Virus record (IMG/VR): IMGVR_UViG_3300042731_008311
Span: 1 to 36,169 of that record
DNA length: 36,169 nucleotides
Source of the DNA: a virus
Strand: one strand, 5' to 3'
Shown: positions 20,640-36,169 of the stretch, one piece after another
How positions within the stretch are numbered: position 1 is the stretch's first letter
Layout of the letters: the number at the start of each line of letters is the position of its first letter
The notes under the pieces: model-generated
The model's database searches: none
Told to the model about the DNA's origin: nothing
The model's input: the letters and a program-made list of their open reading frames with translations, nothing else
Translations under genes and position numbers: made by a program

Positions 20640-20650
20640 TGGGAAACTAC

Positions 20651-20666: not shown

Positions 20667-20689
20667 ACTAATGGCTATCTCTAGCCTAG

Positions 20690-20764: not shown

Positions 20765-20769
20765 TTCAG

Positions 20770-20843: not shown

Positions 20844-20847
20844 AAAG

Positions 20848-20920: not shown

Positions 20921-20928
20921 ATATCAAG

Positions 20929-20999
20929 AGGTCCTGACTGGAATCGAACCAGCATTGCCTGATTACGAAACAGGTGTCTTGCCGTTAGACTACAGGACC
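20929..20999 (-). tRNA. tRNA-Thr(CGT)
   Basis: Anticodon loop TTCGTAA; one T-T mismatch next to the loop; acceptor GGTCCTG/CAGGACC; discriminator T. Confidence 0.9.
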
Positions 21000-21008
21000 A
21001 ATTGTAAG

Positions 21009-21083
21009 TGACCCGAACGGGAATCGAACCCGCGAACTTCAGCTTGAAAGGCTGACATTTCTACCAGCAGAAACTACCGGGCC
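21009..21083 (-). tRNA. tRNA-Glu(TTC)
   Basis: Anticodon loop CTTTCAA; acceptor GGCCCGG/TCGGGTC; discriminator A. The 5'-most tRNA of the array. Confidence 0.9.
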
Positions 21084-21112
21084 TTGTGTGTATGTGTGAA
21101 TATGGATCTCCC

Positions 21113-21333
21113 GCAACCTTGGTTTGCCGGGCCTCTTGGCCGCGTCTTTGGGAAAGTCGAAGGGGTTGCTTAGCTTCTCCTGACCCTCGGCAGCCGCCCG
21201 GCTGGATGTTCGGCATCTTGACCAAACAAATTCGCAGGGGCTGGGGTCAGGGTACGTGCATCACCAGTCCCGCGAGCGGCGGGCTTGAGAATCGTCACGA
21301 CTGTTATGAGCGTCGTTGACATGGTGGTGATGC
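21113..21333 (-). ncRNA. structured RNA candidate at the head of the tRNA array
   Basis: The 435-bp gap before the first plus gene holds no convincing ORF but many helices: GCAACC/GGTTGC (21113-18/21164-69), CCTGACCC/GGGTCAGG (21179-86/21244-51), GCATCACC/GGTGATGC (21258-65/21326-33), with inner CAGCC/GGCTG, CCCGC/GCGGG and ACGAC/GTCGT. A TGTATTTGA element lies just upstream on the minus strand. It could be a leader of the array or a separate RNA; type unknown. Confidence 0.5.
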
Positions 21334-21367
21334 TTTCCTTCGGTTGAGAACTAATGTTACGTTTGCT

Positions 21368-21376
21368 TCAAATACA
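21368..21376 (-). promoter_or_regulatory. TGTATTTGA promoter-like element before array
   Basis: Lies about 35 nt before the structured RNA region on the minus strand; same core TATTT as the other elements. Confidence 0.25.
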
Positions 21377-21471
21377 TCGCTCTATCTGCGAGTATTCCTG
21401 CTGTTACATCCAGCAGCAGCCGGTTAATAAAAAGGACACAGCAAGGTACCCGGAGGTTCGTGTTTCTTTTC

Positions 21472-21480
21472 CGTATTTAC
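21472..21480 (+). promoter_or_regulatory. CGTATTTAC promoter-like element
   Basis: 38 nt upstream of the SLOG gene start; repeated before the DUF5662 gene at 24562. Confidence 0.3.
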
Positions 21481-21518
21481 AGAAAAGCGTCTCTTGCAAC
21501 AATCGGGGGAGAAACTGT

Positions 21519-22016
21519 ATGCTCGTCAAAGTCATCTCCGGAGGACAAACCGGAGCCGATCTCGGTGCACTAACCATCGCCAAACAGCACGGCCTCAAAA
21601 CCGGTGGCTGGATGCCCAAAGGGTTCCTGAACCAAAAAGGCAAACACCCCGAATATGCCGAGCTTTACGGCATGAAAGAACACCCAACGAGCAAACGTTA
21701 TCCACCACGGACGGCACTAAACGTCAAAGAATCTGACGGCACACTTCGCATAGCCGCCAACTTCAATAGTGCGGGCGAAGTCCTGACGATGCAAATGATC
21801 GATCAGTACAAGAAACCACACCTGGATGTGGACGCCTTGATCGACGACGTTTCGCCAAACGATGTTGCGAACTGGATCAAAAGGAATGGTATCAAAATCC
21901 TCAACGTCGCAGGCAATTCAGAATGGAGTTGTCCCGGTATTGGAGAATTTACAATTGCATTCCTTGATGAGGTCTTCCGATGTTACGCTGGATCTACTAC
22001 ACCTTCCGAAACCTGA
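21519..22016 (+). CDS. SLOG-family (YpsA-like) nucleotide-ligand-binding protein
   Basis: 165 aa from ATG 21519 (GGGGGAG upstream); the longer frame upstream is non-coding. MLVKVISGGQTGADLGALTI carries the GGQTGAD glycine-rich loop (8-14) seen in the circularly permuted YpsA/putative molybdenum carrier group. WMPKGFLNQKGKHPEYAELY and ILNVAGNSEWSCPGIGEF are also typical; NxAG(N/P)xES-like residues bind the ligand. SLOG proteins bind or process nucleotides such as ADP-ribose-type signals, and some are sensors in bacterial anti-phage systems. In a phage, ligand sequestration is one possibility. It leads a plus operon with the next genes. Confidence 0.8.
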   Translation: MLVKVISGGQTGADLGALTIAKQHGLKTGGWMPKGFLNQKGKHPEYAELYGMKEHPTSKRYPPRTALNVKESDGTLRIAANFNSAGEVLTMQMIDQYKKPHLDVDALIDDVSPNDVANWIKRNGIKILNVAGNSEWSCPGIGEFTIAFLDEVFRCYAGSTTPSET

Positions 22017-22249
22017 TCTACTACCGTGTCCAGCGACAAGTTGGCCATCAGCGGGTAATGAATCTAGCTGCAGCCCGCGAAATGGACGACATCAAGGATG
22101 CCCTAACGGACGGTCTTCTCGCTACGGTCGGACTCAAGGTCGTCGAGAAGGACGAGGATACCGTACCGTGGTACATTCCACTCTCCAAGTTGCAAAAGAG
22201 TTGGGTCGAGCAAGTATCTAGGCATGGATACAAGGTAGGGCTCACCTAG
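21980..22249 (+). CDS. small hypothetical protein, 89 aa
   Basis: ATG 21980 overlaps the end of the SLOG gene by 37 bp, with GAGG 7 nt before it. The N-terminus MLRWIYYTFRNLIYYRVQRQ is aromatic and basic, and a helical middle (NLAAAREMDDIKDALTDGLL) precedes VPWYIPLSKLQKSWVEQVSR. There is no signal peptide or transmembrane helix of enough length. It is likely translated with the SLOG gene. No family is recognised. Confidence 0.65.
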   Translation: MLRWIYYTFRNLIYYRVQRQVGHQRVMNLAAAREMDDIKDALTDGLLATVGLKVVEKDEDTVPWYIPLSKLQKSWVEQVSRHGYKVGLT

Positions 22250-22278
22250 CAAAAATAAGTGTAACAAGGAGCACAATC

Positions 22279-22692
22279 ATGCCGCGACCCCGAAAACCGA
22301 AGCGTGACCTTAGCCAACAAGAGGGTAATCCTACCCGTGCCCTCCAGGATGCCTACCAACAACTGATGGCTATCCAAGATCCGCAAGAGCTAATGGACGC
22401 GGCGGTTGGGGTCGTGCAGCCATTGGTCGGCAGGGGCATGAGCGAGCAGAACTATCAGAAGTTCATGCAAAACCTGCAAGGCTCCGCCCGCAGAGGACTC
22501 ACCGGCATCCAGATGTTCCTCAGCAATTACATCCTCAAGGGCTCCGGAATGGGGGCCACCCTCGAAGCTGCCGAATCAGTCGCCAGCTTCATCACAGAGG
22601 ATGTGAACGACACTCACGCTCTCACGCCGCAGCAACAAGCCTTGAAGACGTTGGTGGAATCCAACACGTCCTTCAAAGTCGTTCTTCTCTAG
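22279..22692 (+). CDS. hypothetical helical protein, 137 aa
   Basis: ATG 22279 with AAGGAG upstream. Begins with a basic tail (MPRPRKPKRDLSQQEGNPTR) and is then almost entirely helical: LQDAYQQLMAIQDPQELMDA, SEQN YQKFMQNLQGSARRG and LTPQQQALKTLVESN. The positive tail and helices suggest a nucleic-acid or partner-binding protein. It follows the 89-aa gene after 29 bp and precedes the GT25 gene by 7 bp. No family is recognised. Confidence 0.65.
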   Translation: MPRPRKPKRDLSQQEGNPTRALQDAYQQLMAIQDPQELMDAAVGVVQPLVGRGMSEQNYQKFMQNLQGSARRGLTGIQMFLSNYILKGSGMGATLEAAESVASFITEDVNDTHALTPQQQALKTLVESNTSFKVVLL

Positions 22693-22699
22693 ATATGGT

Positions 22700-23350
22700 A
22701 TGCGGTATAACACAGTACACGTCCTAACTGTCTCCCGGAATGTCGAAAGACAAGAACAAGTACGCCGGGAATGGGCGGGTTGGGATATTCAATTCCACTA
22801 CGGCTACGACTACCGTGACCTCAACTGTCCGGAGCCCTATAACAGACAATTTGCCTTGGCCTGTTGTTGGTGCGGCCATCACAAGATATGGGGTGAACTA
22901 GCTGACGAGAAGGGTTGGCATCTAATCATTGAAGACGATGCATTCCCGAAGCCGGGTATCCGTCAAGCAATACGGATGATCCAAACAGAAGAGCATAATT
23001 TCCAGATCGTCAAGCTCTATCATTACGTTGAGCCATCTTGCGAAATCTACCTGCCCAACGGTTTTCAGAAACAGCAATTGCTGGATTTGAAAGAAAATGC
23101 CGAGTATAGGAAAGGCAACAGGGATTGGGTCAGTACCGCTGCTTACCTCGTTAGAAATACCCACAGGGCACGAAGAGAGATCCTTTTTGCCACTCCGGAT
23201 CTAGCCGTACATCTTTCTACATTGAATGTGGGTGGAATATGGCCATTGGTGGCTAATGTGAAAGGGGAGTCTATCATCGGCCTACCGGACAAATACGACA
23301 CGAGCCCGACTAATGCCGGGCTCGCTGGTGATTCCGGTGGTTCTGATTAG
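22700..23350 (+). CDS. glycosyltransferase family 25 protein
   Basis: 216 aa. The family opening VHVLTVSRNVERQEQVRREW aligns with the GT25 start, ACCWCGHHKIWGELADEKGW matches the SLxxGHxxxW-type region, and WHLIIEDDAFPKPGIRQAIR carries the EDD motif that binds the metal and nucleotide sugar. GT25 enzymes add galactose or similar sugars to lipopolysaccharide. No signal or membrane segment is present. It may alter host surface glycans or decorate phage proteins. It ends with a 4-bp stop overlap (TTAG) with the opposing secreted-protein gene, and each gene's terminator hairpin lies inside the other. Confidence 0.8.
   Translation: MRYNTVHVLTVSRNVERQEQVRREWAGWDIQFHYGYDYRDLNCPEPYNRQFALACCWCGHHKIWGELADEKGWHLIIEDDAFPKPGIRQAIRMIQTEEHNFQIVKLYHYVEPSCEIYLPNGFQKQQLLDLKENAEYRKGNRDWVSTAAYLVRNTHRARREILFATPDLAVHLSTLNVGGIWPLVANVKGESIIGLPDKYDTSPTNAGLAGDSGGSD
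23301..23324 (-). terminator. hairpin terminating the 23347-23943 gene
   Basis: CGAGCCCG/CGGGCTCG with an 8-nt loop, 23 nt past the minus gene's stop and inside the GT25 coding end. On the minus strand it is followed by TGTCGTATTTGT. Confidence 0.55.
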
Positions 23351-23943
23351 AACCATTGCACCCCACCCCTATCTGGCGGGGTGGGAGATGGTCGGACGAA
23401 TGGTGTATTGCCCTGGACGCTACTCGATTTAAACGGCAACAGACTGAATGGCCGTTTCGATGCCCCTTCCGGGCCTTTCTCTTGGCTTTCCTTGACCTTC
23501 TTTGCCGCCAGGGGCTTCTGAGCCTCCAGTTCGATCAGTGCAGCGGAAGGGGCAACGGAGGGCTTTCCTTGGGGCTCCGCAATAAGCATCGGTTCCAGGA
23601 TTGTTGGCTTGATAACGAGGACTTCGGCCTTCTTGGGCTCTTCGACCTCTTCGACGACTTCTTTGGCGACCTGAACGGTCTTTTCGACCACTTCCGGTTC
23701 GCTCTTGGCGACCTTCGGTGCCTCTTCAACGACTTGTGGCGTCTCTCGGACGACCGTGTGTCTGCAATTGGTGCAGCGGTTCGATGAGTAGCGGATCGTC
23801 CGCAACCCCCACGTGAACACCCTCTGATTACTGCAGACCCTCGTTCTCACATTGCAGCGTCTGCCGAATATTCCGGCCTCCGCTACTGCCGTGTCGGCCA
23901 TCGCCAACCCGGCTACTACCATTACCAGCAATAGTCTCCACAT
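23347..23943 (-). CDS. secreted Cys-containing protein, 198 aa
   Basis: I start at ATG 23943 (CGGAGA upstream), which begins a signal peptide, MWRLLLVMVVAGLAMADTAVA. The mature N-terminus has four Cys in pairs (RRCNVRTRVCSNQR and RCTNCRH), which could form disulfides or bind metal. The middle is a Glu/Val/Lys repeat region (VVEEAPKVAKSEPEVVEKTV, with further VxKEVVEE units), likely extended or coiled. The C-terminal 60 residues are Pro/Ser rich. Export is likely. The repeats suggest a surface or periplasmic spacer. No family is recognised. Confidence 0.65.
   Translation of the reverse strand: MWRLLLVMVVAGLAMADTAVAEAGIFGRRCNVRTRVCSNQRVFTWGLRTIRYSSNRCTNCRHTVVRETPQVVEEAPKVAKSEPEVVEKTVQVAKEVVEEVEEPKKAEVLVIKPTILEPMLIAEPQGKPSVAPSAALIELEAQKPLAAKKVKESQEKGPEGASKRPFSLLPFKSSSVQGNTPFVRPSPTPPDRGGVQWF
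23362..23385 (+). terminator. hairpin terminating the GT25 operon
   Basis: CCCACCCC/GGGGTGGG with loop TATCTGGC, 12 nt past the GT25 stop and inside the opposing gene's 3' end. No U-tract. Confidence 0.5.
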
Positions 23944-24006
23944 GTTACATGTCTCCGATTCCTTTGTATTAGCGGCTAAGTGTACCCCCAATAGGTAACT
24001 CGCCAT

Positions 24007-24015
24007 TCAAATACG
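24007..24015 (-). promoter_or_regulatory. CGTATTTGA promoter-like element
   Basis: On the minus strand, 63 nt before the secreted-protein start and just after the hairpin at 24016-24046, a natural place for a new promoter. Confidence 0.25.
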
Positions 24016-24046
24016 CCGAGAGCCCAGCTTTTGGCTGGGCTCTCGG
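24016..24046 (-). terminator. 13-bp hairpin after the 24137-24472 gene
   Basis: CCGAGAGCCCAGC/GCTGGGCTCTCGG with a 5-nt loop. On the minus strand it is followed by CGTATTTG. The plus side has TTAAAG. Confidence 0.7.
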
Positions 24047-24136
24047 TTAAAGATCGGAGGAATCCCGATCAACGGCGGCTCGCCAACAAGTGGCGTCCTA
24101 GGCGGCAGGTAGCAACAACCGCCAATTCCGGTGTGA

Positions 24137-24472
24137 TCAGCCTTCCTTCTCGGCTCTCTTCTTGGCCAAGAGGAAAGCGGCCTCGACGGCACCGGGCAGG
24201 AGACCATTGCGAAGCAACGGATCAACGAACCAGTCCGGACCGGGCAGGTCGAGTGGCAGTACGTACTCGTCGTACAGGAGCGTTGCGGCTTCCTTCAACT
24301 GAGCCAGATCTTCATCACTGAAGTCACTACCCTCGGCCAACACTGTCTTGATGGCTTCGCCAAGCACGAGGATGAATGCCCAGACCTCGGACATTGTGAC
24401 CTTGCCATCCTCAAAGGCTTCCATCGCTGTCTCAACGACAGGCTTCAACTTGTCATAATAAACGTTCGCCAT
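24137..24472 (-). CDS. hypothetical helical protein, 111 aa
   Basis: ATG 24472 with AAAGGAGAG upstream. It is helical and acidic: YDKLKPVVETAMEAFEDGKV, SEVWAFILVLGEAIKTVLAE, SDEDLAQLKEAATLLYDEYV, then a loop GPDWFVDPLLRNG and a final helix. It resembles small phage holin-adjacent or virion proteins in size, but has no transmembrane segment of real strength. A 13-bp hairpin terminator follows at 24016-24046. I recognise no family. Confidence 0.65.
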   Translation of the reverse strand: MANVYYDKLKPVVETAMEAFEDGKVTMSEVWAFILVLGEAIKTVLAEGSDFSDEDLAQLKEAATLLYDEYVLPLDLPGPDWFVDPLLRNGLLPGAVEAAFLLAKKRAEKEG

Positions 24473-24561
24473 GTTTCGATCTCTCCTTTGGATCTTTCGT
24501 GCCCACTATTCTAGGTTAGTGCCACCTATCATCTTATTTTTGCCCATGCCCCCACAAGAGA

Positions 24562-24570
24562 CGTATTTAA
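24562..24570 (+). promoter_or_regulatory. CGTATTTAA promoter-like element
   Basis: 33 nt upstream of the DUF5662 gene start; same core as at 21472. Confidence 0.3.
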
Positions 24571-24603
24571 ACTAGATCCCACTTGAAAGGAGGGGGAATA
24601 GAA

Positions 24604-25089
24604 ATGCAAACTATCGAAGGGCTCACAGTAGAGCAACAAGCCGTCAATTACGAGACCCTGCGGCACATCGAGTTCGTCCGCAATCTCATTGACAGAATCA
24701 TCGTCGAGTTGATGGACCGTGCCCGCCGCCACGACCAATCCAAACTCAAAACCCCAGAGGTAGAGTTATTCGCGGAATACACCGAACGCCTCAAAGGCAT
24801 GACATACGGCAGCGACGAGTACAATCAATGCCTCGCCGAGATTCGCCCAGCGTTGGAGCACCATTACGCCAACAATCGTCACCACCCGGAGCACTTCAAA
24901 GGTGGAATAAACGAAATGAATCTCGTTGACCTCATAGAGATGCTTTGCGACTGGAAAGCAGCCTCTACACGCCATAACGATGGAAACCTTCGAAGATCCA
25001 TCGAGGTCAACGGCGACAGATTCGGAATGTCACCCCAACTAATCAAGATCTTCGAAAACTCCATCCCACTCGTTGAGGACGTAGAATAG
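24604..25089 (+). CDS. DUF5662 family protein
   Basis: 161 aa from ATG 24604, with the strong site GAAAGGAGGGG; an upstream TTG would include that site. The family residues are HDQSKLKTPEVELFAEYTE and ALEHHYANNRHHPEHFKGG, followed by NEMNLVDLIEMLCDWKAAS. Several His and Asp residues (HD, HHYxxNRHHPEH) suggest a metal-dependent hydrolase of the HD type. DUF5662 proteins are common in large phages, with no proven activity known to me. The small zinc-finger gene follows after 3 bp. Confidence 0.85.
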   Translation: MQTIEGLTVEQQAVNYETLRHIEFVRNLIDRIIVELMDRARRHDQSKLKTPEVELFAEYTERLKGMTYGSDEYNQCLAEIRPALEHHYANNRHHPEHFKGGINEMNLVDLIEMLCDWKAASTRHNDGNLRRSIEVNGDRFGMSPQLIKIFENSIPLVEDVE

Positions 25090-25092
25090 GTC

Positions 25093-25263
25093 ATGAAATC
25101 ACGGACGTGCCTAAAGTGCCAAAAGGAATTCAAACACGAACTCCCGCCAGCCTACAAAAGAATATGCCCCACATGCGAAAGAAAACAACCCAAAGCTTAC
25201 GGCAGAAAATCGGGGTCAGGCCCCGGTAGACGTGCTGGTAAGCATGTCGGCTCAGGGATCTAG
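25093..25263 (+). CDS. small zinc-ribbon protein, 56 aa
   Basis: Starts at ATG 25093, 3 bp after the DUF5662 stop, so probably translationally coupled. Two Cys pairs, CLKC (6-9) and CPTC (27-30), spaced like a zinc ribbon: MKSRTCLKCQKEFKHELPPA then YKRICPTCERKQPKAYGRKS. The tail is basic and Gly-rich. Nucleic-acid binding is likely. Its TAG stop overlaps the end of the sialyltransferase-like gene on the other strand. Confidence 0.65.
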   Translation: MKSRTCLKCQKEFKHELPPAYKRICPTCERKQPKAYGRKSGSGPGRRAGKHVGSGI

Positions 25264-25991
25264 TCGCAAAGCTCGATATACCCGGCTTCATCCAGGCTAC
25301 GTAGGACTCTCTTGTCGAATTCGACCTCATGGGCGATTGAGATATGAGAAGGGTCCCCAGGTTGCTGCTTGAAATCGTTGAATCCAACTAGCTGGATTTT
25401 CCAGGCTCTCAAGTATCTGATTGACAACAGGTGTAGCACCATAGCCACGCCATTTGTCAGCGGTATCAACTTCGAGCCACCTGGACGCTTTTCTGGAAAC
25501 CCATGCTTAGGGAGTCCAAATACATATTGATATAACGGGCTGATGTGGACTATCCGCACTTCCTTCTTCAACATTTCCGGGAAATAATCGGCGTATGGCT
25601 TGATGTCCATCTCATAATGTAAGAAGGCCCCGGCGACCCACATTTCCTCACAGTCGTACCACGGCTGCATACTTTTGACTTCTCTTTCAATCCATCCTTT
25701 CATCATCTCAGAATGGTAGACATGGACATCATCCGGAGTTGTCCGATCCCTGGTGAAGGCCCTACAAGCACGCAATGCTAGAATGTCGGTCTTCGTGCCG
25801 GTCATACCGGAATCGTAATGGATACACCTGGAAAACCGCATCACACAGTTGGCAGAATCGACAAAATCAGACCTGTCTCTGGCCATCGCTGAATTGCCAA
25901 CGACGACAATTCTGCCGCCTCCTTTAGGGCCGGAACGCTTTCCAAAGAATTTGTCCCTTACGAGGTTGCCCTTAAGCGGGAGTAATACCAT
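25260..25991 (-). CDS. sialyltransferase-like (GT29-type) protein
   Basis: 243 aa. GGRIVVVGNSAMARDRSDFV (about 25-44) and SANCVMRFSRC match the L sialylmotif (VGNS...ID..D.VIRF), GTKTDILAL follows, and IPLTNGVAMVLHLLSIRYLR with IQLVGF matches the S sialylmotif. These enzymes move sialic acid from CMP to a sugar. It starts inside the CMP-sialic acid synthetase-like gene (34-bp overlap), which would supply its donor. Such pairs are rare in phages, as far as I recall. Without a signal peptide it should act in the cytoplasm, on a host glycolipid precursor or phage protein. Ends opposite the zinc-ribbon gene. Confidence 0.7.
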   Translation of the reverse strand: MVLLPLKGNLVRDKFFGKRSGPKGGGRIVVVGNSAMARDRSDFVDSANCVMRFSRCIHYDSGMTGTKTDILALRACRAFTRDRTTPDDVHVYHSEMMKGWIEREVKSMQPWYDCEEMWVAGAFLHYEMDIKPYADYFPEMLKKEVRIVHISPLYQYVFGLPKHGFPEKRPGGSKLIPLTNGVAMVLHLLSIRYLRAWKIQLVGFNDFKQQPGDPSHISIAHEVEFDKRVLRSLDEAGYIELCD

Positions 25992-26602
25992 TGTGCAAGC
26001 TCGAAATCTAATTGGTTATCGATATCGACAGATGGTTCAGGCTGAACGAACACCTGCGGAGTCCTTCCAGCCGGGTACAACGCTTCTCTAATTACCTTCC
26101 CGTCAACAATATGACACGACGTGTCCCATCGAACCCACTTCGGCAGATATTCACTAGTCCGGTGGAAATAGCCAAACTGGAAATTGAGCGGTCTACCATT
26201 CTCGTCGGTTATGAAATGCCGCACAGGAGACCCTGAGAAGATCGAGTCGTGTTTTTCCCGATCCCAAGCTTCCATAATTTCCTTGTAATAGTCGAATAGC
26301 GGCGTCGTGCAATACGTCAGCATCACACAGTCGTCATCTGTTATCTCAGTGAACCAGAAGCGGATAGCGACTTGCCAGCCTTCCTTATTCACGTGGCCGT
26401 CATTCAGCCAGTTGAGGCCAAAACGATCTGCAATCCGCCGCCCATTCGGCCCATCACCAACGATAGTGATATCCGACTGCCGATAGTGCTTCAAGAGTTG
26501 CCGGACTTTGATAACCGGCAGTGGCTCACCTTCGTAGAAGGGCTCGAAGTTCTTGTTCGGGTATCTGGCGGAATTCTCTTTGATTGGTAGGATTATTTTC
26601 AT
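25958..26602 (-). CDS. CMP-sialic acid synthetase-like cytidylyltransferase
   Basis: 214 aa from ATG 26602 with GGAGG upstream; a TTG-type longer start is unlikely. MKIILPIKENSARYPNKNFE is the family's CTP-binding motif (PARxxSxRxPxKN), DDDCVMLTYCTTPLFD matches the sugar-nucleotide strand, and PEPSVDIDNQLDFELAQWYY carries the DID metal motif. The family activates sialic or related nonulosonic acids with CTP. It could use another acidic sugar (for example KDO or legionaminic acid). It precedes and overlaps the sialyltransferase-like gene. No synthesis genes for the sugar are visible, so the sugar must come from the host or elsewhere in the genome. Confidence 0.75.
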   Translation of the reverse strand: MKIILPIKENSARYPNKNFEPFYEGEPLPVIKVRQLLKHYRQSDITIVGDGPNGRRIADRFGLNWLNDGHVNKEGWQVAIRFWFTEITDDDCVMLTYCTTPLFDYYKEIMEAWDREKHDSIFSGSPVRHFITDENGRPLNFQFGYFHRTSEYLPKWVRWDTSCHIVDGKVIREALYPAGRTPQVFVQPEPSVDIDNQLDFELAQWYYSRLRATS

Positions 26603-26715
26603 CGCTTTCCTCCGTACTCGTATGTATTTAATCTTTAGCGGGATGCTGGGAATCCAGATCACGCCTCATTAACCATGGGCACGAGCCCGCAACAGTTCTT
26701 GAGGAGTGGTCTATC

Positions 26716-27558
26716 ATGAAAAACACCGGCATACAGTGGGCAGATGATACCGTCAATCCGACCTCCGGATGCGACGGTTGCGAATTGTGGATTCCCGGAC
26801 GCGGCGGGCCTTGCTACGCCGGAAACTTCCACGAAACTCGCTTGGCGAAATCCCTGCCCGATCTCTATGATCCCGTCTTCACCAACGTCCGCGAAATTCC
26901 GGGGCGAATGGCTAAGGCCGTTCGCTGCCAGGACCTGACAGGACGTGACCGCCCCGACAAACCGTGGTTGAACGGCATGCGTCGGAAGTTGTTCGTGGGG
27001 GACTTGGGTGATATCTTCTCTGCAGGAATCAGCTTTGATTTCCTGAAGGCCGATATCATCGATGTCGCCAACAGCAAAGAGGGATCGAGACATGACTTTC
27101 AGTTGCTGACGAAACAGCCAAAACGAGCGGCTAAGTTCGCAGAATGGCTGGACGAGCCGTGGCCGGAAAATGTATGGATTGGCACCAGTATCACCAGTGC
27201 CACTACCCGCAGCAGAATTCCGCCTCTGTTGGAGGTACCGGCCAGTGTTCACTTCTTGTCGCTAGAACCGCTGATTGATGAGCCCAAATTAACTACCAAG
27301 TTGTTAGAGGGTATCAACTGGATTATTATCGGCGGCGAGAGCGACCAGGGTGATCACGCCGGTCGAGATTTCCACCTATCGTGGATTCGGGAGTTGATCC
27401 CGATGTGCCGCGAAATGGGCATAGCCCTGTTTGTGAAACAGATGGGAGCGAATGGCTACGACAATGGTACAAGATTGGACTTGGTTGACGGACACGGCGG
27501 CGACTGGTCAGAGTGGCCAGAAGACGTTAGGATTCGGGAGATGCCGGTCCAGCGATAG
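26716..27558 (+). CDS. DUF5131 / Gp37-Gp68 family protein
   Basis: 280 aa; GAGGAG lies before the ATG. The N-terminus MKNTGIQWADDTVNPTSGCD and CELW..GPCYA is the family hallmark, with Cys positions typical of a radical-SAM-like iron-sulfur region. FQLLTKQPKRAAKFAEWLDE, NVWIGTSITSATTRSRIPPL, and INWIIIGGESDQGDHAGRDF (the GGE motif) follow in order, and LFVKQMGANG near the end. Family members are frequent in phages and mobile elements; their reaction is not known to me. It is transcribed against its neighbours and overlaps the 102-aa gene at the 3' ends. Confidence 0.85.
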   Translation: MKNTGIQWADDTVNPTSGCDGCELWIPGRGGPCYAGNFHETRLAKSLPDLYDPVFTNVREIPGRMAKAVRCQDLTGRDRPDKPWLNGMRRKLFVGDLGDIFSAGISFDFLKADIIDVANSKEGSRHDFQLLTKQPKRAAKFAEWLDEPWPENVWIGTSITSATTRSRIPPLLEVPASVHFLSLEPLIDEPKLTTKLLEGINWIIIGGESDQGDHAGRDFHLSWIRELIPMCREMGIALFVKQMGANGYDNGTRLDLVDGHGGDWSEWPEDVRIREMPVQR

Positions 27559-27835
27559 AGGAGAGCTTGTGCATGTGGACATCGGCCCAATCGGCTTCGT
27601 GCGGGTCGATTCCATTTTGTTCACAGTAGTCAAGCCACGCTTGGTACCCGTAAAGGTCGATATACTCGGAGCGGCGTAGGGGTCTCTGTGCTTCTGCTTT
27701 ACGCAAAAGTTTCTTTCGCTGGTCTGCCAGATATGGATAATTGGGCATACCACTGGCGTTCATTGCCCGTACGTTGGCTCTTTGAAGCTTTCGCTCTGAT
27801 GTGCGGCTGGTACTTCGCAGGTATGGATGTGGCAT
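27527..27835 (-). CDS. hypothetical basic protein, 102 aa
   Basis: ATG 27835 with GAGGAG upstream, 12 bp after the XamI-like gene's stop. The N-terminal half is basic (MPHPYLRSTSRTSERKLQRA, LADQRKKLLRKAEAQRPLRR), and the second half has SEYIDLYGYQAWLDYCEQNG and an acidic HEADWADVH. It may bind nucleic acid and could be an accessory of the nuclease, but no DNA methyltransferase features are present. It overlaps DUF5131 at the 3' end by 32 bp. Confidence 0.6.
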   Translation of the reverse strand: MPHPYLRSTSRTSERKLQRANVRAMNASGMPNYPYLADQRKKLLRKAEAQRPLRRSEYIDLYGYQAWLDYCEQNGIDPHEADWADVHMHKLSSIAGPASPES

Positions 27836-27847
27836 GCTTTGTTCTCC

Positions 27848-28624
27848 TCAGAGTATTTTTGCCAAATCATCCATTCTGTGTTCCCAGAACCAGTCAATCC
27901 CCGCTTTTGCGATGTACCTGAGGAAGATTTCGTCGAAGTAGCCACATAGCATCATAATATACGTGGCGTTTGGATGGACTTCTTTGAGGTCCACGGATCT
28001 CTTGACGTCTTCTTTCTTTCGTTTGTTTGGATTTGTGAAGTCCCCAGCGGCTTTACATTCAATACAAATCATGTCCGAAGCCCAGAGAACTGCATCGATA
28101 GGTAACTTCGGCTCTTTCTCGCGAACATTGTGGCGGAATTTGAAGTGTTCGCCCTTGGTAAAACCGCGTTTGGTCAGCCAATCTCCTAAGAGCTTCAGTT
28201 GCCGTCGTTCTTGGGCATTGACGAGTTCGTTCCTGACGGCCACTGATGAAGCCATTCTGTCGATAGCCACCTCTACGGATGTTGCACGATTGATGAAGTG
28301 GTTCAGCACTTCAATAATACTACGCTTCTCTTCATCGGTTGGGTCTTTGAGGGCTCCCTTTCGGACATCTGCTAAACCACACAGTCGGTCTTGAGAGAGG
28401 GGCGGATCACAGCAAGCCCTTAGTACATGCAGATGATCTGGGATATGGATTTCGTTGACGTTTTTGAGATTGTCGGAGACCGAGAAAGCGATGTGTGCTG
28501 CGGGAGTGACTGTTGATCTTCCTTGGCGGTAGATCCTAGGAGCGTTGGCCTTGTACCAATCATTGTACATGGCCACTGATTCGGCTATGTCTGTTAGCCA
28601 GCGGGGTTGATATTCAATGTTCAT
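27848..28624 (-). CDS. XamI-family type II restriction endonuclease
   Basis: 258 aa. The start RWLTDIAESVAMYNDWYKAN, the middle LHVLRACCDPPLSQDRLCGL, and the catalytic part LPIDAVLWASDMICIECKAA plus GDFTNPNKRKKEDVKRS follow the XamI family as I recall it. Asp177 and E189xK191 form a PD-(D/E)xK centre. XamI recognises GTCGAC (SalI specificity). I found no GTCGAC in the window, although the TCGAC pentamer is common, which supports that specificity. No methyltransferase is visible here. A phage nuclease without its methylase could destroy host or rival DNA while its own genome lacks the sites. It sits just downstream of the capsid gene, past the terminator. Confidence 0.8.
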   Translation of the reverse strand: MNIEYQPRWLTDIAESVAMYNDWYKANAPRIYRQGRSTVTPAAHIAFSVSDNLKNVNEIHIPDHLHVLRACCDPPLSQDRLCGLADVRKGALKDPTDEEKRSIIEVLNHFINRATSVEVAIDRMASSVAVRNELVNAQERRQLKLLGDWLTKRGFTKGEHFKFRHNVREKEPKLPIDAVLWASDMICIECKAAGDFTNPNKRKKEDVKRSVDLKEVHPNATYIMMLCGYFDEIFLRYIAKAGIDWFWEHRMDDLAKIL

Positions 28625-28652
28625 GCAATATCAATACATACCCCGGATACGC

Positions 28653-28682
28653 CATCGGCCCGGCATTTCTGCCGGGCCGATG
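28653..28682 (-). terminator. 13-bp hairpin after the capsid gene
   Basis: CATCGGCCCGGCA/TGCCGGGCCGATG with a 4-nt loop, 30 nt past the major capsid stop. It separates the head operon from the XamI-like gene. Confidence 0.75.
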
Positions 28683-28712
28683 CGTGATAGTGGCAAAAGC
28701 TGCAATCGTGCC

Positions 28713-30329
28713 TTACAGGTTGCTGACGGTCACGACGCCGTAGTACAGGCCACCGTCCTCGATCAGCTTCTTTCCGTAGCGGGTCATGACACCCTTGTTC
28801 GGCGTGAAGCTGTTCGGGTCCAGCACGGTCGGCGTGCTGAGCAGCGGGATGTACGGGGCGTAGAAGTAACCGGCGTCCAGGACCGAGTTGCCTTTGAAGC
28901 CCATGAGGATCTTGCAGTTCGGGAAGAGAGGATCTTTGTAGATCTTCATCTTGCCCTGAATCGTGCCGATGTTCATGATGCCGACGTCCACGCCCTCGGT
29001 CGTGAAGGCGTCGCTGGCTCGGAAGTCGTTCAACTGTTCGAACTTCGAGCAGATGTCGGCGGACATGACCATCCAGTTGGCCGGGCCTCGCAAGGTCGTG
29101 CGGTGGATGATGTTGGCCACTTCGAGGACCTTGTACATCAGGGCGATGTTGCGGTCCGTGAAGTTGACCGATGCACCAGCGGCAGTCGCGAAGTTGTGGT
29201 CCGCTCGAATGGCCGCCGAAATGATCAAGTCGTTGATGATTTCACGATCGATTTCCGCGACCATCTCATCGGCCATCAGGTCGGTGAGGGTGGACTCGGC
29301 GTCGATGTTGTGAACCGACTTGAGGTCTTGGGCGGCTTCCAGGCTCCAGGAGGTCTTCAGCTTACGAGTGATCGCGGCGACCGAATCGCTGTCGATACTC
29401 AGCGTGACTTCCGGCTGGAACGGGTTGGCTTCCAGGTCGTACTCGTAGTTCACGCGGGCGACGGCCCCAACGGGGAAGCTACCAGCGGAGAGCGTGACTT
29501 GAACTTGGCCGGTGCTGTGGTCGAAGGCGGTCGCACCGGTCGTCGCGGTGTCAACGGCCAACGTCGAGGTGAAATCGGTGCAGTCGCCGACGAGGACGAC
29601 ATCCGGGGCACCATCACTGTCGTAGCTGACTCGCAAGCACGGCACGGCTTCTTCGCAGTTCGGGCTGGCGTCGGCTTCGGTCGAGAAGACTTCGACGACA
29701 ACCGTACCGGCGAGAACCGGGCGGTGTGCCAGGGTTGCGGAAACGACGGTACCGCCTGTGATCGTCGCGTCTTCGCCCCGGACTTCCTGCGAGGAGTAGT
29801 ACGGGTCGAGTGCCCAACCGTTCTGGCGTGCGAACGATTGTGCCGTGTTTTGACGCATGATCTGGGTACCGGCGACCGTCTGGCCCTTCGTGAGGGCGTA
29901 GCGGTACCTGATGTAGAAGATCAGGCTGGCCGGTTGGCTCATTGGCTGGACGCCGACGAGGTTGTCTGCGATCAGCTTCGGATAGGACTTCCGGATTAGC
30001 GGCAGGGCGAATCGCGTGAAGTCGGCGATGTTGGCGGTGGTCGTTTGGTCCTCAAAGATGACCGAGCGATTTTCCGGATTCCAGGCGTTGAACTGGTTTT
30101 CCAGGATCGAGGCCATCAGGCCGAATTTCTGTCGGCCAACTTCGCGGCACTTGCCGAGAACGGGGGACCACTTTCTCACGAGTTGGTTCTTCTTGGACTC
30201 GTGAATAACCGCTGCTTTGTGCAGGTCGGTTTCCTCGGTGATCGGGCGGCGAGTCTGTGTGCTCTCGGTCAGGTGGCGACGCTGACGCCGAGCGGTGGCT
30301 TGCCCACCCTGCTGTCGTGTAGGAAGCAT
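28713..30329 (-). CDS. major capsid protein (T4 gp23-like)
   Basis: 538 aa; AGGAG precedes the ATG. FALPLIRKSYPKLIADNLVG and VQPMSQPASLIFYIRYRY are the gp23 family signature, and ESTLTDLMADEMVAEIDREI with LRGPANWMVMSADI follow at the expected positions. The N-terminal 45 residues are basic (RQQGGQATARRQRRHL) and should be removed: LTE-S (22/23), ITE-E (32/33) and IHE-S (44/45) all fit the T4 prohead protease pattern (I/L)xE. The scaffold has a related RQGGQ...LTES segment. It forms hexamers in the head. It is the last gene of the head operon, before a strong hairpin. In other respects it looks full length. Confidence 0.95.
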   Translation of the reverse strand: MLPTRQQGGQATARRQRRHLTESTQTRRPITEETDLHKAAVIHESKKNQLVRKWSPVLGKCREVGRQKFGLMASILENQFNAWNPENRSVIFEDQTTTANIADFTRFALPLIRKSYPKLIADNLVGVQPMSQPASLIFYIRYRYALTKGQTVAGTQIMRQNTAQSFARQNGWALDPYYSSQEVRGEDATITGGTVVSATLAHRPVLAGTVVVEVFSTEADASPNCEEAVPCLRVSYDSDGAPDVVLVGDCTDFTSTLAVDTATTGATAFDHSTGQVQVTLSAGSFPVGAVARVNYEYDLEANPFQPEVTLSIDSDSVAAITRKLKTSWSLEAAQDLKSVHNIDAESTLTDLMADEMVAEIDREIINDLIISAAIRADHNFATAAGASVNFTDRNIALMYKVLEVANIIHRTTLRGPANWMVMSADICSKFEQLNDFRASDAFTTEGVDVGIMNIGTIQGKMKIYKDPLFPNCKILMGFKGNSVLDAGYFYAPYIPLLSTPTVLDPNSFTPNKGVMTRYGKKLIEDGGLYYGVVTVSNL

Positions 30330-30374
30330 ATCAATTACTCCTGATCTTGCTCAAATTGGGTTCAGTCGGTCGAG

Positions 30375-31115
30375 TTAGACAAGATCTTCGTCGATTTGGG
30401 CCGCAATGTTGTCAACGGTGTAACCATTGCCGTTTCCGGTACCGGTTACGTGCGGCTGATTCGACTTCGCGGGTGGGCGACGATCCTGACTTTCGGTGAG
30501 GGTGGCCCTTGTCGAACGCGATTGACCACCCTGACGGGATTTGTCAATCCGCTGTCGCCGTGGCTTCTGGCCTTTGCCTTCGTTCACGGTTTTCTTCGGA
30601 GTTCCGGTGGTTTGCTCTTGCACCGTCTTGAGTGCCGTCGCAAGTTCCCGGTTCCGCTTCAGGGCCTTCTCGGCAATGGCGGTCTTGCGGTTGGCAAGTT
30701 CCACTGCCCGGTTCTTCTCCTCGGTCGCGACTTGAGCCTGACGCTTGAGCTTCTCAACGACGGCTGTAACGTCACCGCTTGGCTTACCATTTGGCTCCAA
30801 CCCCTCCAGCAATGCCGAGATTTGGTTGAGCTTGGTGAGAGCTTCGGATTCGTTAAGGGCCGACTGCTTGGCAAGCTGTGCCTCGATCGCAGCACCTTTG
30901 GTTTCGCAGAAAATCTGCACTCTGCGGGCTAGTTCCCGCTTATGGGCCTCGGTTTCCTCGATGCAGACCTGCTTGGCCTGCTCGACCTTGGCCGCATACT
31001 CTGTCTCGAACTGCTCGCGAAGAGTGGTTTTGTAACTGTCCAGTGACTCACAGATCTTGCCTGAGAGTTCTGGGCTGACACCAGCCTTTTCGAGCAGTGC
31101 CTTGATTTTATCCAT
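30375..31115 (-). CDS. prohead scaffold protein (gp22-like)
   Basis: 246 aa. Almost entirely helical and charged: LREQFETEYAAKVEQAKQVC, EETEAHKRELARRVQIFCET, VVEKLKRQAQVATEEKNRAV and KALKRNRELATALKTVQEQ, a coiled-coil pattern. The C-terminal 70 residues are basic and Gly/Ser-rich, with RQGGQSRSTRATLTESQDRR, similar to the capsid N-terminus. Its position between the protease and the capsid gene is that of T4 gene 22. It builds the core of the prohead and is then degraded; LTE-S (208/209) fits the protease pattern. Low sequence identity to gp22 is expected. Confidence 0.85.
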   Translation of the reverse strand: MDKIKALLEKAGVSPELSGKICESLDSYKTTLREQFETEYAAKVEQAKQVCIEETEAHKRELARRVQIFCETKGAAIEAQLAKQSALNESEALTKLNQISALLEGLEPNGKPSGDVTAVVEKLKRQAQVATEEKNRAVELANRKTAIAEKALKRNRELATALKTVQEQTTGTPKKTVNEGKGQKPRRQRIDKSRQGGQSRSTRATLTESQDRRPPAKSNQPHVTGTGNGNGYTVDNIAAQIDEDLV

Positions 31116-31174
31116 CGTGAGTTCTCCTCGCGAACCGTTATTTGAATTTATCTTTGCTCAGACCAGTTACTTCT

Positions 31175-31918
31175 CTACTTGAGACCGAAGAACTTATTAA
31201 TCTCCGAAACAAGCAGATTGTTGTATGCGTCCGGCGAGAACCGGCTCCGTTCCTTTTTGACCGGACGCAAACGACGGTTCAAACCCTCTTGGATCTGCAG
31301 AATCGCACCATTCACCGAAGGTTCAGCGACCGCATCCCAAGTGACGAAAGCATATCCCGGCATAACCCGGTACAATTCCTTCCCGGCATTCTCGACGACT
31401 TCCATATCGCCAACGCCACGGGACGAAATACCAACTCTCACCTTGTGCTCGAACAAACCACGAAGGCATGCACCACAGGGGAGATTATGGAGTACCTCTG
31501 CCTCCCCGAAGACCTTACGGCCATCCATCCAGACTTTCGTCATGAGATGGCTGACTCGATCCAAGTGGATCTTGGCGTCGGCGGGGTGATCGAACTCACC
31601 CATAACCGCTCTCGCACCAACATCCTCCTGGATACCATTGACCGCTGGTCTCAAGACCTCAGAAGTCGAATAGAAACGACCGTTTGCATTCTCACGATCG
31701 CCCATCTGGACAAGGCCGGAGACCCGCATCGCGGGCAACTCCTTGCCGCCTCTTCCTTCGACGACAATATCCTGCTTGTCGATCACGTCGAACGCAAACG
31801 TGTCCTGAATCAACTGGAAACCGGCAGGAATAACGCCAGTCTCAGCAATCATGCCCCTGTTGAAGCCCGGATTCCGGTCTTCAAGGAGAGCACGAGTTCC
31901 TCGACGAGTTGGCAACAT
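31175..31918 (-). CDS. prohead core protease (T4 gp21-like)
   Basis: 247 aa. NANGRFYSTSEVLRPAVNG, VMGEFDHPADAKIHLDRVSH (His111 in GEFDHP), MTKVWMDGRKVFGEAEVL and VRVGISSRGVGDMEVV (Ser165 or 166) carry the conserved His and Ser of the U9/S80 protease family. It matures the prohead by cutting after (I/L)xE. Its own N-terminus has LLE-D (13/14), a possible self-cleavage site. It starts 12 bp after the inner head protein stop and precedes the scaffold gene by 59 bp, where GATAAATT is only a weak late-promoter match. Confidence 0.95.
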   Translation of the reverse strand: MLPTRRGTRALLEDRNPGFNRGMIAETGVIPAGFQLIQDTFAFDVIDKQDIVVEGRGGKELPAMRVSGLVQMGDRENANGRFYSTSEVLRPAVNGIQEDVGARAVMGEFDHPADAKIHLDRVSHLMTKVWMDGRKVFGEAEVLHNLPCGACLRGLFEHKVRVGISSRGVGDMEVVENAGKELYRVMPGYAFVTWDAVAEPSVNGAILQIQEGLNRRLRPVKKERSRFSPDAYNNLLVSEINKFFGLK

Positions 31919-31930
31919 ATCCGGCCTCCG

Positions 31931-34900
31931 TTACTTCTGGCTCATTGGTTTTGCAGTGGGAGGCTTGGTGCCCGAACCGTCATCAGTCTTCAGGTCTGGG
32001 CCGACCTCTTCCAGCTTATCGTCTGTCTTTCCAGTCGGCTTGTGAGCGGGCATGTCGCGAGGATTCTCTTTGACGTGCTTGGTGTACTTCGAGCTTTGGG
32101 GCTCGGTGACATCCTTGTCCTCAAGCATGTCCTCTTCCTCGTCGCCCATATCGGTCGGCATACCTTCCTCAGGACCACCCATACCCATCTCCTGACCACC
32201 GAGATCGCCGCCCATCTCGTCGCCGGGACCTTCTTCGTAGTCCATGTCGGCACCGGGCTCCATACCCATCTCGTCGCCGCCCTCGAAGTCAGGCATCATT
32301 TCGTCGCCTTCTTCAGCACCGGGCTCCATCATCTCGTCGCCCGCATCGACGCTATCGACGGGCTCCATACCAACGGCGTCCATCTCGTCGCCTTCACCGG
32401 CACCGAGATCATCGACCGGGACGTCATCGCTGACTTCGACCGAGATCCCGCCTTCAGGCGTTGTCGTGATGGTTGCCATGGCCTCTTCCAGAGCCTTGTC
32501 TTCGGTATCGGCGATCGGTCGGAGTTGCTCAATCGATTCGCAAAGCCAACCGTGGAATTCGCTGCCGTCACCCTCCAGCATACCAGCGGAAGCGAAGGCA
32601 CTGTCGTACAGCTTCTCCGGAATCGGTATTTCAACCGAACCGTCTTCCGAAAGAATGACTGGCTTCAGTTCGCTCTCACCACCGTGGTCGAAGATGAATG
32701 ACACGTCGCCAATCTGGCCCATCATACCATCTTCCTGGGCTTCACCCCACTGGATCGACTCATTCTTGAGTTCGCGTGGGGCGTAAGCGGTCTTCTTGAA
32801 GCCACGACCACGAATTCGAGGACCCTTGAACTGGTCTTCGGCCACATCGTCATCATCGTCGTCTTCCCATGGCTTGCCGGAACCGCCGTCATCGCTGCCG
32901 GAATCGTCCGAACCCTTCTCCCACGGCTTGCCAGAATCACTTCCGCCATCGTCGTCACCGCCGTCGTCGCTGTCCTTGCTTCCGAATGGGGGTGCTGCAC
33001 CGGGGAATGGCTTGTCGCCTTCGCTGAAGAGGCTCACGCACTCTTCGATGGCCTTGGTCATGCGGCCTTCGGGAATTCGAAGCCCGATTGCCTTGATGGC
33101 TGCTTGAGCCATGCTGACCAAGTTCTGTTCCAGGGCCGGTCCTTGGAGTTTGTGCTCTACGGCCAGCTTGTCCATGATCCGGACTACCTGCTGGAGTTCG
33201 GAGCGGTCGGTGATGACCGGTGCCCCATATTCCATCATGGCAGTGTTGCCTTCGGCGAGTTGAAGCTCGTCCTTTTTGATGGCGTACGGGTCGGCGTTCT
33301 CTTCCAACTCCATTTCCATGCGGTCGTCGGTGCCGTGGGCACTGTCGTCGTCGGCGTCGTCCTTCATCTCGTAATGATTCGGACGGGATTCCTTGATGGC
33401 TTTGCCCTTCTGCTTACCTTCAAAGGGATTACCACCACCAGCCGGGGGAGCTTCTTCACCGCCGCCACCGCCGCCGAGAATTGCTGCGAGTTCGTCCTCA
33501 GGACTTGCTTCCTCTTCCGGAGGTGCTGCTGCCGCTTCCCCACCTTCCGGAGGTAGGGCTTCTTCGCCGCCCGCTGCATCGCCAGCGGAGCTTGATCCAC
33601 CCACCTGGATCAGAGGAGAATTGATGTTGATGACTGGTTGGCCTTCGCCGCCAGCAGCGGGTTCTGGGCCAGCACCCATCGGATCGTCGCCGGGCATCGT
33701 GTCGAAATTGCTCAGCGTATCGGTTGCTGCCAACTCTTCTTGGATGGTCGCAATGAGATCCTCGGCCTCGTAGATCGCGGCGTCATCGAAGTCCTTGGCC
33801 TGCAGGCGGGCAATCAAGTTGTCCAGCTTGCTGGTCAAATCATGCGATTCCTTGATCTTCGGCGTCTTGTCCTTCAGGTCGGCCAAAGCGGTGGCCAGGG
33901 CGGACGCAGCAACTTGTTTGTTGCTGAAGGCTTCGAAGATGAGTTCGAGGAATTTGTCGTAGGCCGCCTCGAAGTTGGTCGCATTCTCCAAGATCTGGAC
34001 GTTCTCGGCCAGAACGGGGTGCTCGGCCTTCTTGGCGATATTCCGCCATTCGTCGATGATCTTGGACCGACTGATCCGCATGTTGGTGCGGTAGAATAGG
34101 GTTGCCGTGTCGCGGGCCAATTGGTCGTTGAAGATCGCCTGGGATGCCAAGGCATTCTCGACCAACGTCTGGCATTGACCGCGTGTCAGCAGTGTGAATT
34201 CTTCATTCTCGTCGAGGAATGGCGTGACTTGCTTGACGGCATCGTTGATCTTGCTCTCGGATACGAGGCGTGCCGTGTTGTAGATCCGCTTTTGGAATCC
34301 CTCCGACCAGAAAGCGTTGGAAGCCGTGTCCCGCATTCGGCGAGCCACGAGCTTTCGTGCTGCCCACTTGGTGACTGGAAGCTTGACTTCTTCGCCATCG
34401 GAGAATGTGCCGGAAACGACTTGGCCGTTTTCGACAATCACGTTGTCTCGCAGGCTTTCGACGATGGTGCTAACGAGCCGGGCACGCACATCTTCACCCA
34501 GCGATTCGCCGCTGGAGATGGTAATGCGACGGACAACGTTGTCGCGGCCCTTGACGACACCTGAGTATGGGACTACTCGACCCGAAAAACGTTGAGCTTG
34601 CATCCGCTTGAAAGCGGAGCCCATTGTCTTCTGGTCGTTTTCTTCAATCGCGTTCACGAGCCGGAGGCAGGACTCACCGAAGAGGCTTTGTTTCTCCTCT
34701 TCGACGATCTCGACCGGTCGGATATTGGCGATTGAGATTTTGCCTCCCTTGTCGCGGGTATGCTCGGCGACGAAGAAGGTGTTGGTGTCAACGTCTTCGA
34801 AGTAGAGTTGCTTGGCGTGCAGGGCGACAAGTCGGTAATCCTTGCCAGCATGCTTCCCCATGCTTGCTACGCGGTCTTCGAAGAATGCAACGCGGGCCTG

Positions 34901-34984
34901 AGCGGAATCGTTCAGGGCTCCCAGAAACTTGCGACTATCCATTTTTACCGTTTGGGTAGCCGATGCGTTCTGATTTTGAGCCAT
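31931..34984 (-). CDS. large acidic inner-head/scaffold-like protein, 1017 aa
   Basis: I start at ATG 34984 (GCAGGAG upstream). Residues 1-430 are a mixed helical domain (SRKFLGALNDSAQARVAFFE, KWAARKLVARRMRDTASNAF, TRGQCQTLVENALASQAIFN). Then come Gly/Pro/Glu-rich linkers, an AILGGGGGGEE stretch, a second ordered part (SELQQVVRIMDKLAVEHKLQ), Asp/Gly repeats with two SGKPWE units, a further folded part (FIFDHGGESELKPVILSEDG), and a very acidic Met/Gly/Glu tail with repeats such as GDEMMEPGAEEGDEMMPDF. It lies between portal and protease, where T4 has genes 67 and 68, so I infer a core protein. IKE-S sites suggest processing by the prohead protease. Its length and disorder are unusual. Confidence 0.75.
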   Translation of the reverse strand: MAQNQNASATQTVKMDSRKFLGALNDSAQARVAFFEDRVASMGKHAGKDYRLVALHAKQLYFEDVDTNTFFVAEHTRDKGGKISIANIRPVEIVEEEKQSLFGESCLRLVNAIEENDQKTMGSAFKRMQAQRFSGRVVPYSGVVKGRDNVVRRITISSGESLGEDVRARLVSTIVESLRDNVIVENGQVVSGTFSDGEEVKLPVTKWAARKLVARRMRDTASNAFWSEGFQKRIYNTARLVSESKINDAVKQVTPFLDENEEFTLLTRGQCQTLVENALASQAIFNDQLARDTATLFYRTNMRISRSKIIDEWRNIAKKAEHPVLAENVQILENATNFEAAYDKFLELIFEAFSNKQVAASALATALADLKDKTPKIKESHDLTSKLDNLIARLQAKDFDDAAIYEAEDLIATIQEELAATDTLSNFDTMPGDDPMGAGPEPAAGGEGQPVININSPLIQVGGSSSAGDAAGGEEALPPEGGEAAAAPPEEEASPEDELAAILGGGGGGEEAPPAGGGNPFEGKQKGKAIKESRPNHYEMKDDADDDSAHGTDDRMEMELEENADPYAIKKDELQLAEGNTAMMEYGAPVITDRSELQQVVRIMDKLAVEHKLQGPALEQNLVSMAQAAIKAIGLRIPEGRMTKAIEECVSLFSEGDKPFPGAAPPFGSKDSDDGGDDDGGSDSGKPWEKGSDDSGSDDGGSGKPWEDDDDDDVAEDQFKGPRIRGRGFKKTAYAPRELKNESIQWGEAQEDGMMGQIGDVSFIFDHGGESELKPVILSEDGSVEIPIPEKLYDSAFASAGMLEGDGSEFHGWLCESIEQLRPIADTEDKALEEAMATITTTPEGGISVEVSDDVPVDDLGAGEGDEMDAVGMEPVDSVDAGDEMMEPGAEEGDEMMPDFEGGDEMGMEPGADMDYEEGPGDEMGGDLGGQEMGMGGPEEGMPTDMGDEEEDMLEDKDVTEPQSSKYTKHVKENPRDMPAHKPTGKTDDKLEEVGPDLKTDDGSGTKPPTAKPMSQK

Positions 34985-35066
34985 CAGATGTACTCCTGCG
35001 GATTTACTCCGGTTTGTTATGTTCAACTATTACTAATTTTGAGTCGAGGACTGGTGATTCATTATC

Positions 35067-36169
35067 CTATAGACGACTAACCGACACCGGGATATCCTCC
35101 TCGGTGATTACATTGTCGTCTTCAGAAGCCCCTTCTTCGACCTCACCGGCCACGAGGACGTTGTAGACTTCTTTGATAACCGCATCACGCTCTTCCGCGT
35201 CCACCGACCATTCGACCAGCAGTCCACTATCTTTGTTGGGATCATATATTGGTGAGAGCTTGCCATTTGACTCCACATTAGAGCGAGGCTCATCAGCAGA
35301 GAGGCCATCAAGTTCGTTGCTCTCCAACAGATGCTGGAAACCGCTATGGAATTCAATCCCATCAGGAGACTGAAACTTACCAAGACGAGTGGCCCAACGC
35401 TTCACGATCTTCATCGCATCATTCATCCTGCCCTGCTTTCGCAATTCAAGAATCAGACGCTTCTCGGAAGCATAATCAAAGCCCTCGATAGGAATTTCGC
35501 CAGCTTCCTCATCAGAAGCCGGGACACCACCCTCTTCACCACCTTCCTCAGGTGCAATCTCACCGCCACCCTCTTCAGGCGGAGGTAACTCTCCCTCTTC
35601 ACCACCACCCAAATCATCCAACCCACCAGGAGCACCGCCACCGGGACCACCCTGTGATTCCGTCTCCTCCATCTCCTTGAGTTCTTCGATCTCATCCGGA
35701 GACAAATCGGTGAAATGAGTAACAATCCACTCCTTCGGGAACCAACCAAGATCCTTCAAATCGGCCATCACACCAACGCGAGTCTGCCACGTCTCAATCC
35801 GATATAACTCCTCCATTGCCGACGTAGCCGTCAAAGCAATTTCGAAGCCCTTCAGATCTTCAACAGTATACCCACGCAATGCAAGATGGACGATGGCTAC
35901 TTTCGTCAGACCAGTCGCCACTTCCCGCTGAACCCACTGCACTGCTTTAGCGAATTCGGAGTGTGACTGAGAGAGTGACTTCTCATTGGCTTCGCCGCCA
36001 CCTTCACCAATTCCAACTCTGGAAAATGGAATCTTGGTCGGGGCAATCATCTTTTTCTTGAAGTATTCGATGTCAGCAATCTGATCCAGGTTTTCAGCAC
36101 CTGGAAGTGTATCGACATCGGGGCCGGTCCCATCTGGACGTCGCGGCAAGAAGAAGTCATCCTCTTGGA
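35067..36169 (-). CDS. portal vertex protein (T4 gp20-like), C-terminal part
   Basis: The right edge cuts the gene; the frame remains open upstream (…QEDDFFLPRRPDGTG). FFLPRRPDGTGPDVDTLPGA, ENLDQIADIEYFKKKMI and APTKIPFSRVGIGEGGG are classic gp20 motifs. The following 100 residues are helical (KAVQWVQREVATGLTKVAIV, HFTDLSPDEIEELKEMEET). After a Gly/Pro/Glu linker (residues near 165-225 of the visible part) there is a C-terminal extension of about 140 residues including FDYASEKRLILELRKQGRMN, which T4 gp20 does not have as far as I recall. The portal is the dodecameric DNA gate and the first gene of this head cluster in transcription order. Confidence 0.93.
   Translation of the reverse strand, partial: QEDDFFLPRRPDGTGPDVDTLPGAENLDQIADIEYFKKKMIAPTKIPFSRVGIGEGGGEANEKSLSQSHSEFAKAVQWVQREVATGLTKVAIVHLALRGYTVEDLKGFEIALTATSAMEELYRIETWQTRVGVMADLKDLGWFPKEWIVTHFTDLSPDEIEELKEMEETESQGGPGGGAPGGLDDLGGGEEGELPPPEEGGGEIAPEEGGEEGGVPASDEEAGEIPIEGFDYASEKRLILELRKQGRMNDAMKIVKRWATRLGKFQSPDGIEFHSGFQHLLESNELDGLSADEPRSNVESNGKLSPIYDPNKDSGLLVEWSVDAEERDAVIKEVYNVLVAGEVEEGASEDDNVITEEDIPVSVSRL

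Follow-up and report, generated by a model that had tools for sequence, protein, structure and literature searches.

A lone XamI-family endonuclease gene behind gp23 in a GTCGAC-free fragment of a huge T4-like phage

The gene at positions 27848 to 28624 of the phage DNA analysed here raises the question of how a phage can carry a stand-alone nuclease of a type II restriction family in DNA that lacks its predicted target, GTCGAC, and whether the gene and the missing site are connected. An earlier note had proposed that the enzyme may be used against host or competitor DNA and that the phage protects itself by losing the sites. The window, that is, the whole stretch of 36,169 bp that was analysed, is IMG/VR record IMGVR_UViG_3300042731_008311 in full, and the record is itself a phage genome fragment. 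From its T4-type head genes and from relatives of its capsid protein found in contigs of up to 408 kb, the window is a piece of a huge T4-like phage, whose parent genome is probably about ten times larger than the 36-kb fragment. The nearest named match to the capsid protein (40%) is from an uncultured 595-kb phage. The features needed below are as follows.

1..36169: whole record; free of GTCGAC, of GCGC and of at least 12 other six-base palindromes (site counts)
27527..27835, minus strand: ORF of 102 aa without Pfam match, starting 12 bp past the nuclease gene (ORF list)
27848..28624, minus strand: lone gene for a XamI-family (PF09572) PD-(D/E)XK endonuclease of 258 aa (PF09572, 100.4 bits)
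28653..28682, minus strand: strong RNA hairpin with a 13-bp stem and a GAAA loop (fold of the gap between gp23 and the nuclease gene)
28713..30329, minus strand: major capsid protein gene gp23 (PF07068 Gp23, 270.8 bits)
31175-31918: prohead protease gene, a T4-type head gene (Pfam scan)
35067-36149: portal gene, a T4-type head gene (Pfam scan)

On its minus strand, at 14644-21083, the window also carries 32 tRNA genes with an HNH endonuclease ORF (17075-17668) in their midst. Purine-type metabolic genes, for adenylosuccinate synthetase and lyase and for a phosphoribosyltransferase-domain protein, are located at 233-1612, 11394-12746 and 9170-10297.

The assignment of the gene to the XamI family, made in the earlier note from the letters alone, was borne out by Pfam, where the ORF matched PF09572 RE_XamI far above the cut-off of 25 bits. 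GTCGAC is the predicted target by way of homologues, whose own specificity is taken from the family name and from an operator-like motif described below. The sequence GTCGAC occurs on neither strand of the window, as the note had stated, and about 11 to 16 copies would be expected: 13.96 ± 3.75 from dinucleotide shuffles, 15.6 from a trinucleotide model, 13.7 from a maximal-order Markov model (the kind of comparison that the note had suggested), and 10.8 ± 2.7 when synonymous codons were shuffled within 24.4 kb of genes, none of 300 such shuffles falling below 3. The Poisson probability of finding none lies between 2e-5 and 2e-7, and is at most 1.3e-3 when corrected for 64 palindromes. All one-mismatch neighbours are present, with 5 to 31 copies each, and the counts that the note had made by eye held: TCGAC follows A, T or C 60 times (ATCGAC 20, TTCGAC 23, CTCGAC 17), and GTCGA followed by A, G or T is common (GTCGAA 31, GTCGAG 18, GTCGAT 17). 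An effect of codon use or composition was rejected by the synonymous-codon shuffles.

The absence of GTCGAC is nevertheless not special, being one of many absent palindromes, many of which are unrelated to XamI. The tetramer GCGC is found 0 times against 93 expected, and the same is true of CGGCCG (0 against 21), GCCGGC (18), GGATCC (16), CTCGAG (13), GAGCTC (11) and CAGCTG (10); AGGCCT, CCGCGG, GGGCCC, CCCGGG, AGTACT and ACGCGT are likewise without any copy, so that at least 12 six-base palindromes besides GTCGAC stand at zero. CAGCTG, the reversed pattern, is unusable as a control for GTCGAC, since it is itself avoided in the window. Other huge T4-like phages (G014, G010, G012 and G007) share with the window a very wide avoidance of type II palindromes, in which GCGC is the most strongly avoided; in the 400 kb of G014, for example, GCGC is found 2 times against 470 expected, CTCGAG 0 against 79 and GGATCC 2 against 92. 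The sets of avoided sites differ from relative to relative. GATC is strongly depleted (11 of 75) in L055 and L056 (G033 and G034), relatives that also encode an N6/N4 methyltransferase.

Equal avoidance in relatives that lack the gene was named in the earlier note as a finding that would count against its reading, and such avoidance was partly encountered: in relatives without a PF09572 match GTCGAC is low in G007 (4 observed, 36 expected), G010 (8, 41), G012 (3, 27) and G035 (1, 8), and G031, in whose record no PF09572 match was found, has 5 copies against 88 expected in 395 kb. This depletion in relatives without a XamI match, together with the many avoided palindromes, means that host restriction is enough to explain, with no part played by the gene, why GTCGAC is missing. 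Complete loss of type II palindromic sites by non-temperate phages is well documented (PMC6286503) and is what the window has in common with them; here, in contrast, more than a dozen sites are lost at once, and one of them is the predicted target of a nuclease that the phage itself encodes. Site avoidance in this phage group is thus unusually broad for the known strategy.

A different indication comes from the closest relative, G001, which shares 94% capsid identity and 78% DNA identity over 7.5 kb with the window. Among the 17 palindromes absent from the window at an expectation above 4, 16 are absent from G001 too, and GTCGAC is the only one that it retains, in 4 copies against 10 expected; the chance that all four would fall in G001 is P = 0.024. 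One of these copies sits in the major capsid protein gene, the one place that could be aligned, where the window reads GTTGAC; the gp23 gene of the window contains no GTCGAC. No XamI-like gene was found in the 739 bp behind the G001 capsid gene, nor elsewhere in its 39 kb. The contrast, which consists of one pair and one difference, is no more than suggestive of a link between the gene and site loss.

The proposal that site loss serves as self-protection therefore stands in part: the loss is strong and the sister phage keeps GTCGAC alone among the absent palindromes, but relatives without a XamI match avoid the same site and many unrelated palindromes are missing as well. Gene-driven site loss, the causal direction of the earlier note, is possible. 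The strongest rival is that nuclease and site loss are unrelated, host restriction having removed GTCGAC along with GCGC and the others, and the XamI-like gene being a recent passenger in its slot. We take this as a serious possibility, though one short of probable. The absence of at least 13 palindromes from the window, the depletion of GTCGAC in G007, G010, G012 and G031 and the documented capacity of phages for complete site elimination (PMC6286503) all agree with it, whereas the singular behaviour of GTCGAC in G001 does not, and a lone active GTCGAC nuclease would be incompatible with remaining sites. As such a nuclease could not persist while sites were left, gene and site loss are expected to be linked in one direction or both.

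The lone state of the gene is itself exceptional. A search of viral contigs with the single sequence returned no XamI-like proteins, and homologues emerged when an alignment was used as query; no match was obtained in 50,697 phage records, and a scan of genome contigs gave one distant fragment (L083). In all 15 other viral-contig cases a methyltransferase adjoins the XamI homologue and GTCGAC is present in the record, and the plasmid homologues that were read have a methylase gene as neighbour, except for one record whose neighbour is annotated only as hypothetical. The window gene is the single case found without a methyltransferase neighbour, and there is thus no conservation to show selection on it. 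The earlier note had seen no methyltransferase, and none was found among the 30 window ORFs with Pfam or in six-frame searches with PF01555, PF07669 and PF00145, so that the cognate methyltransferase alongside, which defines a type II restriction-modification system, is found neither adjacent to the gene nor in the 36 kb. Absence from the window was rejected as proof of a lone enzyme, since the record is a fragment and the rest of the genome may hold a methyltransferase or GTCGAC sites. A restriction-modification pair split in this way, with the methyltransferase encoded beyond the fragment, is nonetheless improbable. Some relatives do encode a DNA methyltransferase (PF01555 in G031, G032, G033, G034 and G040), but the Eco57I-type family PF07669 occurs in 0 of the 27 records searched, the partner is adjacent in every viral-contig homologue, and methylated sites would need no loss.

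The viral-contig operons also bear on the target. In 9 of the 15, the R gene is preceded at about 200 bp by a perfect paired element, GTCGAC-AT-GTCGAC, with differing flanks; the nine represent only a few related groups. The element supports GTCGAC as the target of this viral-contig clade. In L111, L112, L113, L114, L115, L117, L118, L119 and L120 the perfect palindrome GTCGACATGTCGAC, some 200 bp ahead of the XamI R gene, extends over a possible ATG start and resembles an operator by which the restriction-modification operon would regulate itself.

D177, E189 and K191 of the window nuclease are invariant when it is aligned with 7 plasmid homologues and 14 others, and a TN..KR block near these residues is also conserved among plasmid and viral-contig homologues; on this comparison they constitute a PD-(D/E)XK active site whose catalytic residues are intact, and the protein is predicted to cut DNA. 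NCBIfam and PHROGs gave no match to the 258-aa protein, and no solved structure was found by sequence. An AlphaFold2 model (mean pLDDT 85) has as its top full-length structural matches the type II restriction enzymes BstEII (Z 12.3) and BsoBI (Z 10.7), at an rmsd of about 9 over 226-232 residues, while its core agrees with PD-(D/E)XK nucleases to about 2.5-3 Å. I-Bth0305I is also among the matches (Z 7.9), and the XamI family itself is a six-base type II family. Several separate, scattered deletions leave the protein about 55 residues short of its homologues and could have altered its specificity. A truncated dead fragment was rejected as an explanation, because the deletions are scattered and the motif is intact. 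It is very improbable that the protein is inactive, cuts another target or serves another purpose (packaging or recombination, for example), with the GTCGAC link a coincidence: these deletions and an identity of just 30-44% or so to homologues speak for it, and the conserved D, E, K and TN..KR block, the confident model with its restriction-enzyme fold, and the intact ORF with phage-like codon use speak against it. The nuclease gene, like the rest of the window, contains no GCGC.

The position of the gene suggests a use. It lies directly downstream of gp23 in the same orientation, and the hairpin between the gp23 stop and the nuclease start has counterparts at the same place in relatives (19 folded), many of which run into T-runs and are terminator-like. 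The 102-aa ORF that follows is likely co-transcribed with the nuclease gene. In relatives the position behind gp23 is often occupied by EndoVII/HNH-like, LAGLIDADG, or TnsA- or VSR-like proteins, or by a homing endonuclease with Mom, and the window nuclease is thus, as expected of a freestanding homing endonuclease, a stand-alone gene in a gap between genes that other endonucleases also occupy. GTCGAC occurs in the major capsid protein genes of 28 of 60 relatives, so competitors bearing targets exist. Use of the nuclease against competitors is plausible from this placement.

The reading preferred here, to which we give an even chance, is that a type II nuclease was recruited into a homing-type endonuclease slot, is safe there through a site-free genome, and probably serves to attack the DNA of competing phages or of the host. 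The enzyme would be a compact XamI-family nuclease, a predicted GTCGAC cutter that lost or never owned a methyltransferase. Its role in infection would be to cleave GTCGAC in the DNA of related phages infecting the same cell, and perhaps in that of the host as well, while the phage's own DNA would escape because it contains no GTCGAC. As to the order of events, host restriction systems were probably the main cause of the site loss, as for the other missing palindromes; a genome free or nearly free of GTCGAC would then have been safe for a lone nuclease, which could settle in the slot of the capsid gene and may afterwards have helped to purge the last sites. The more far-reaching proposition, that a type II nuclease without methyltransferase acts as a freestanding homing or exclusion endonuclease, with site absence replacing methylation and any GTCGAC-bearing relative as its victim, is tentative and rather unlikely.

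Known systems share parts of this arrangement. XamI restriction-modification systems (PF09572 RE_XamI with an N6 methylase) share with it the nuclease family, the catalytic motif and the predicted fold, and differ in that the window nuclease is shorter, has no methyltransferase neighbour and lies within a phage late-gene region, in a genome fragment that is without GTCGAC instead of methylating it. T4 segD and other freestanding homing endonucleases share with it a stand-alone endonuclease gene directly 3' of gp23 and a hairpin between the genes. In T4, segD sits in the 23/24 gap, reversed relative to gp23, in contrast to the window gene, and the freestanding endonucleases lead to exclusion of T2 markers (PMC2988022); the window nuclease would likewise be expected to act on related phages without the gene. 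PD-(D/E)XK is a known homing endonuclease class (PMC6083498). The window nuclease belongs to a type II restriction family rather than to GIY-YIG as segD does, and its predicted target is a six-base palindrome. Such a short target is, to our knowledge, unlike those of known homing endonucleases, which counts against the preferred reading.

Should the preferred reading hold, site avoidance, usually viewed as passive defence against the host, would allow a phage to keep a restriction nuclease without methyltransferase, and such a nuclease would serve competition between phages. Type II restriction enzymes and homing endonucleases would then meet at one slot, in which relatives keep nuclease-modification fusions.

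In many of the relatives' slots there is also a protein bearing methyltransferase motifs (DPxxGWGxR, TSPPF), either fused to another protein or next to one. Fusions of an HNH, LAGLIDADG or TnsA/VSR-like nuclease with a methyltransferase-like or Mom domain were observed at L002:11759-13279, L008:11680-13440, L008:13566-15407, L015:11849-14029, L026:1918-3378, L041:4180-5715 and L055:11588-13420, and may cut relatives while marking their own DNA. These endonuclease-modification fusions (HNH or LAGLIDADG with a methyltransferase-like domain, VSR-like with Mom) occupy the same slot in the same phage group as the window nuclease, but hold a possible self-protection domain within the same protein, whereas the window nuclease has none.
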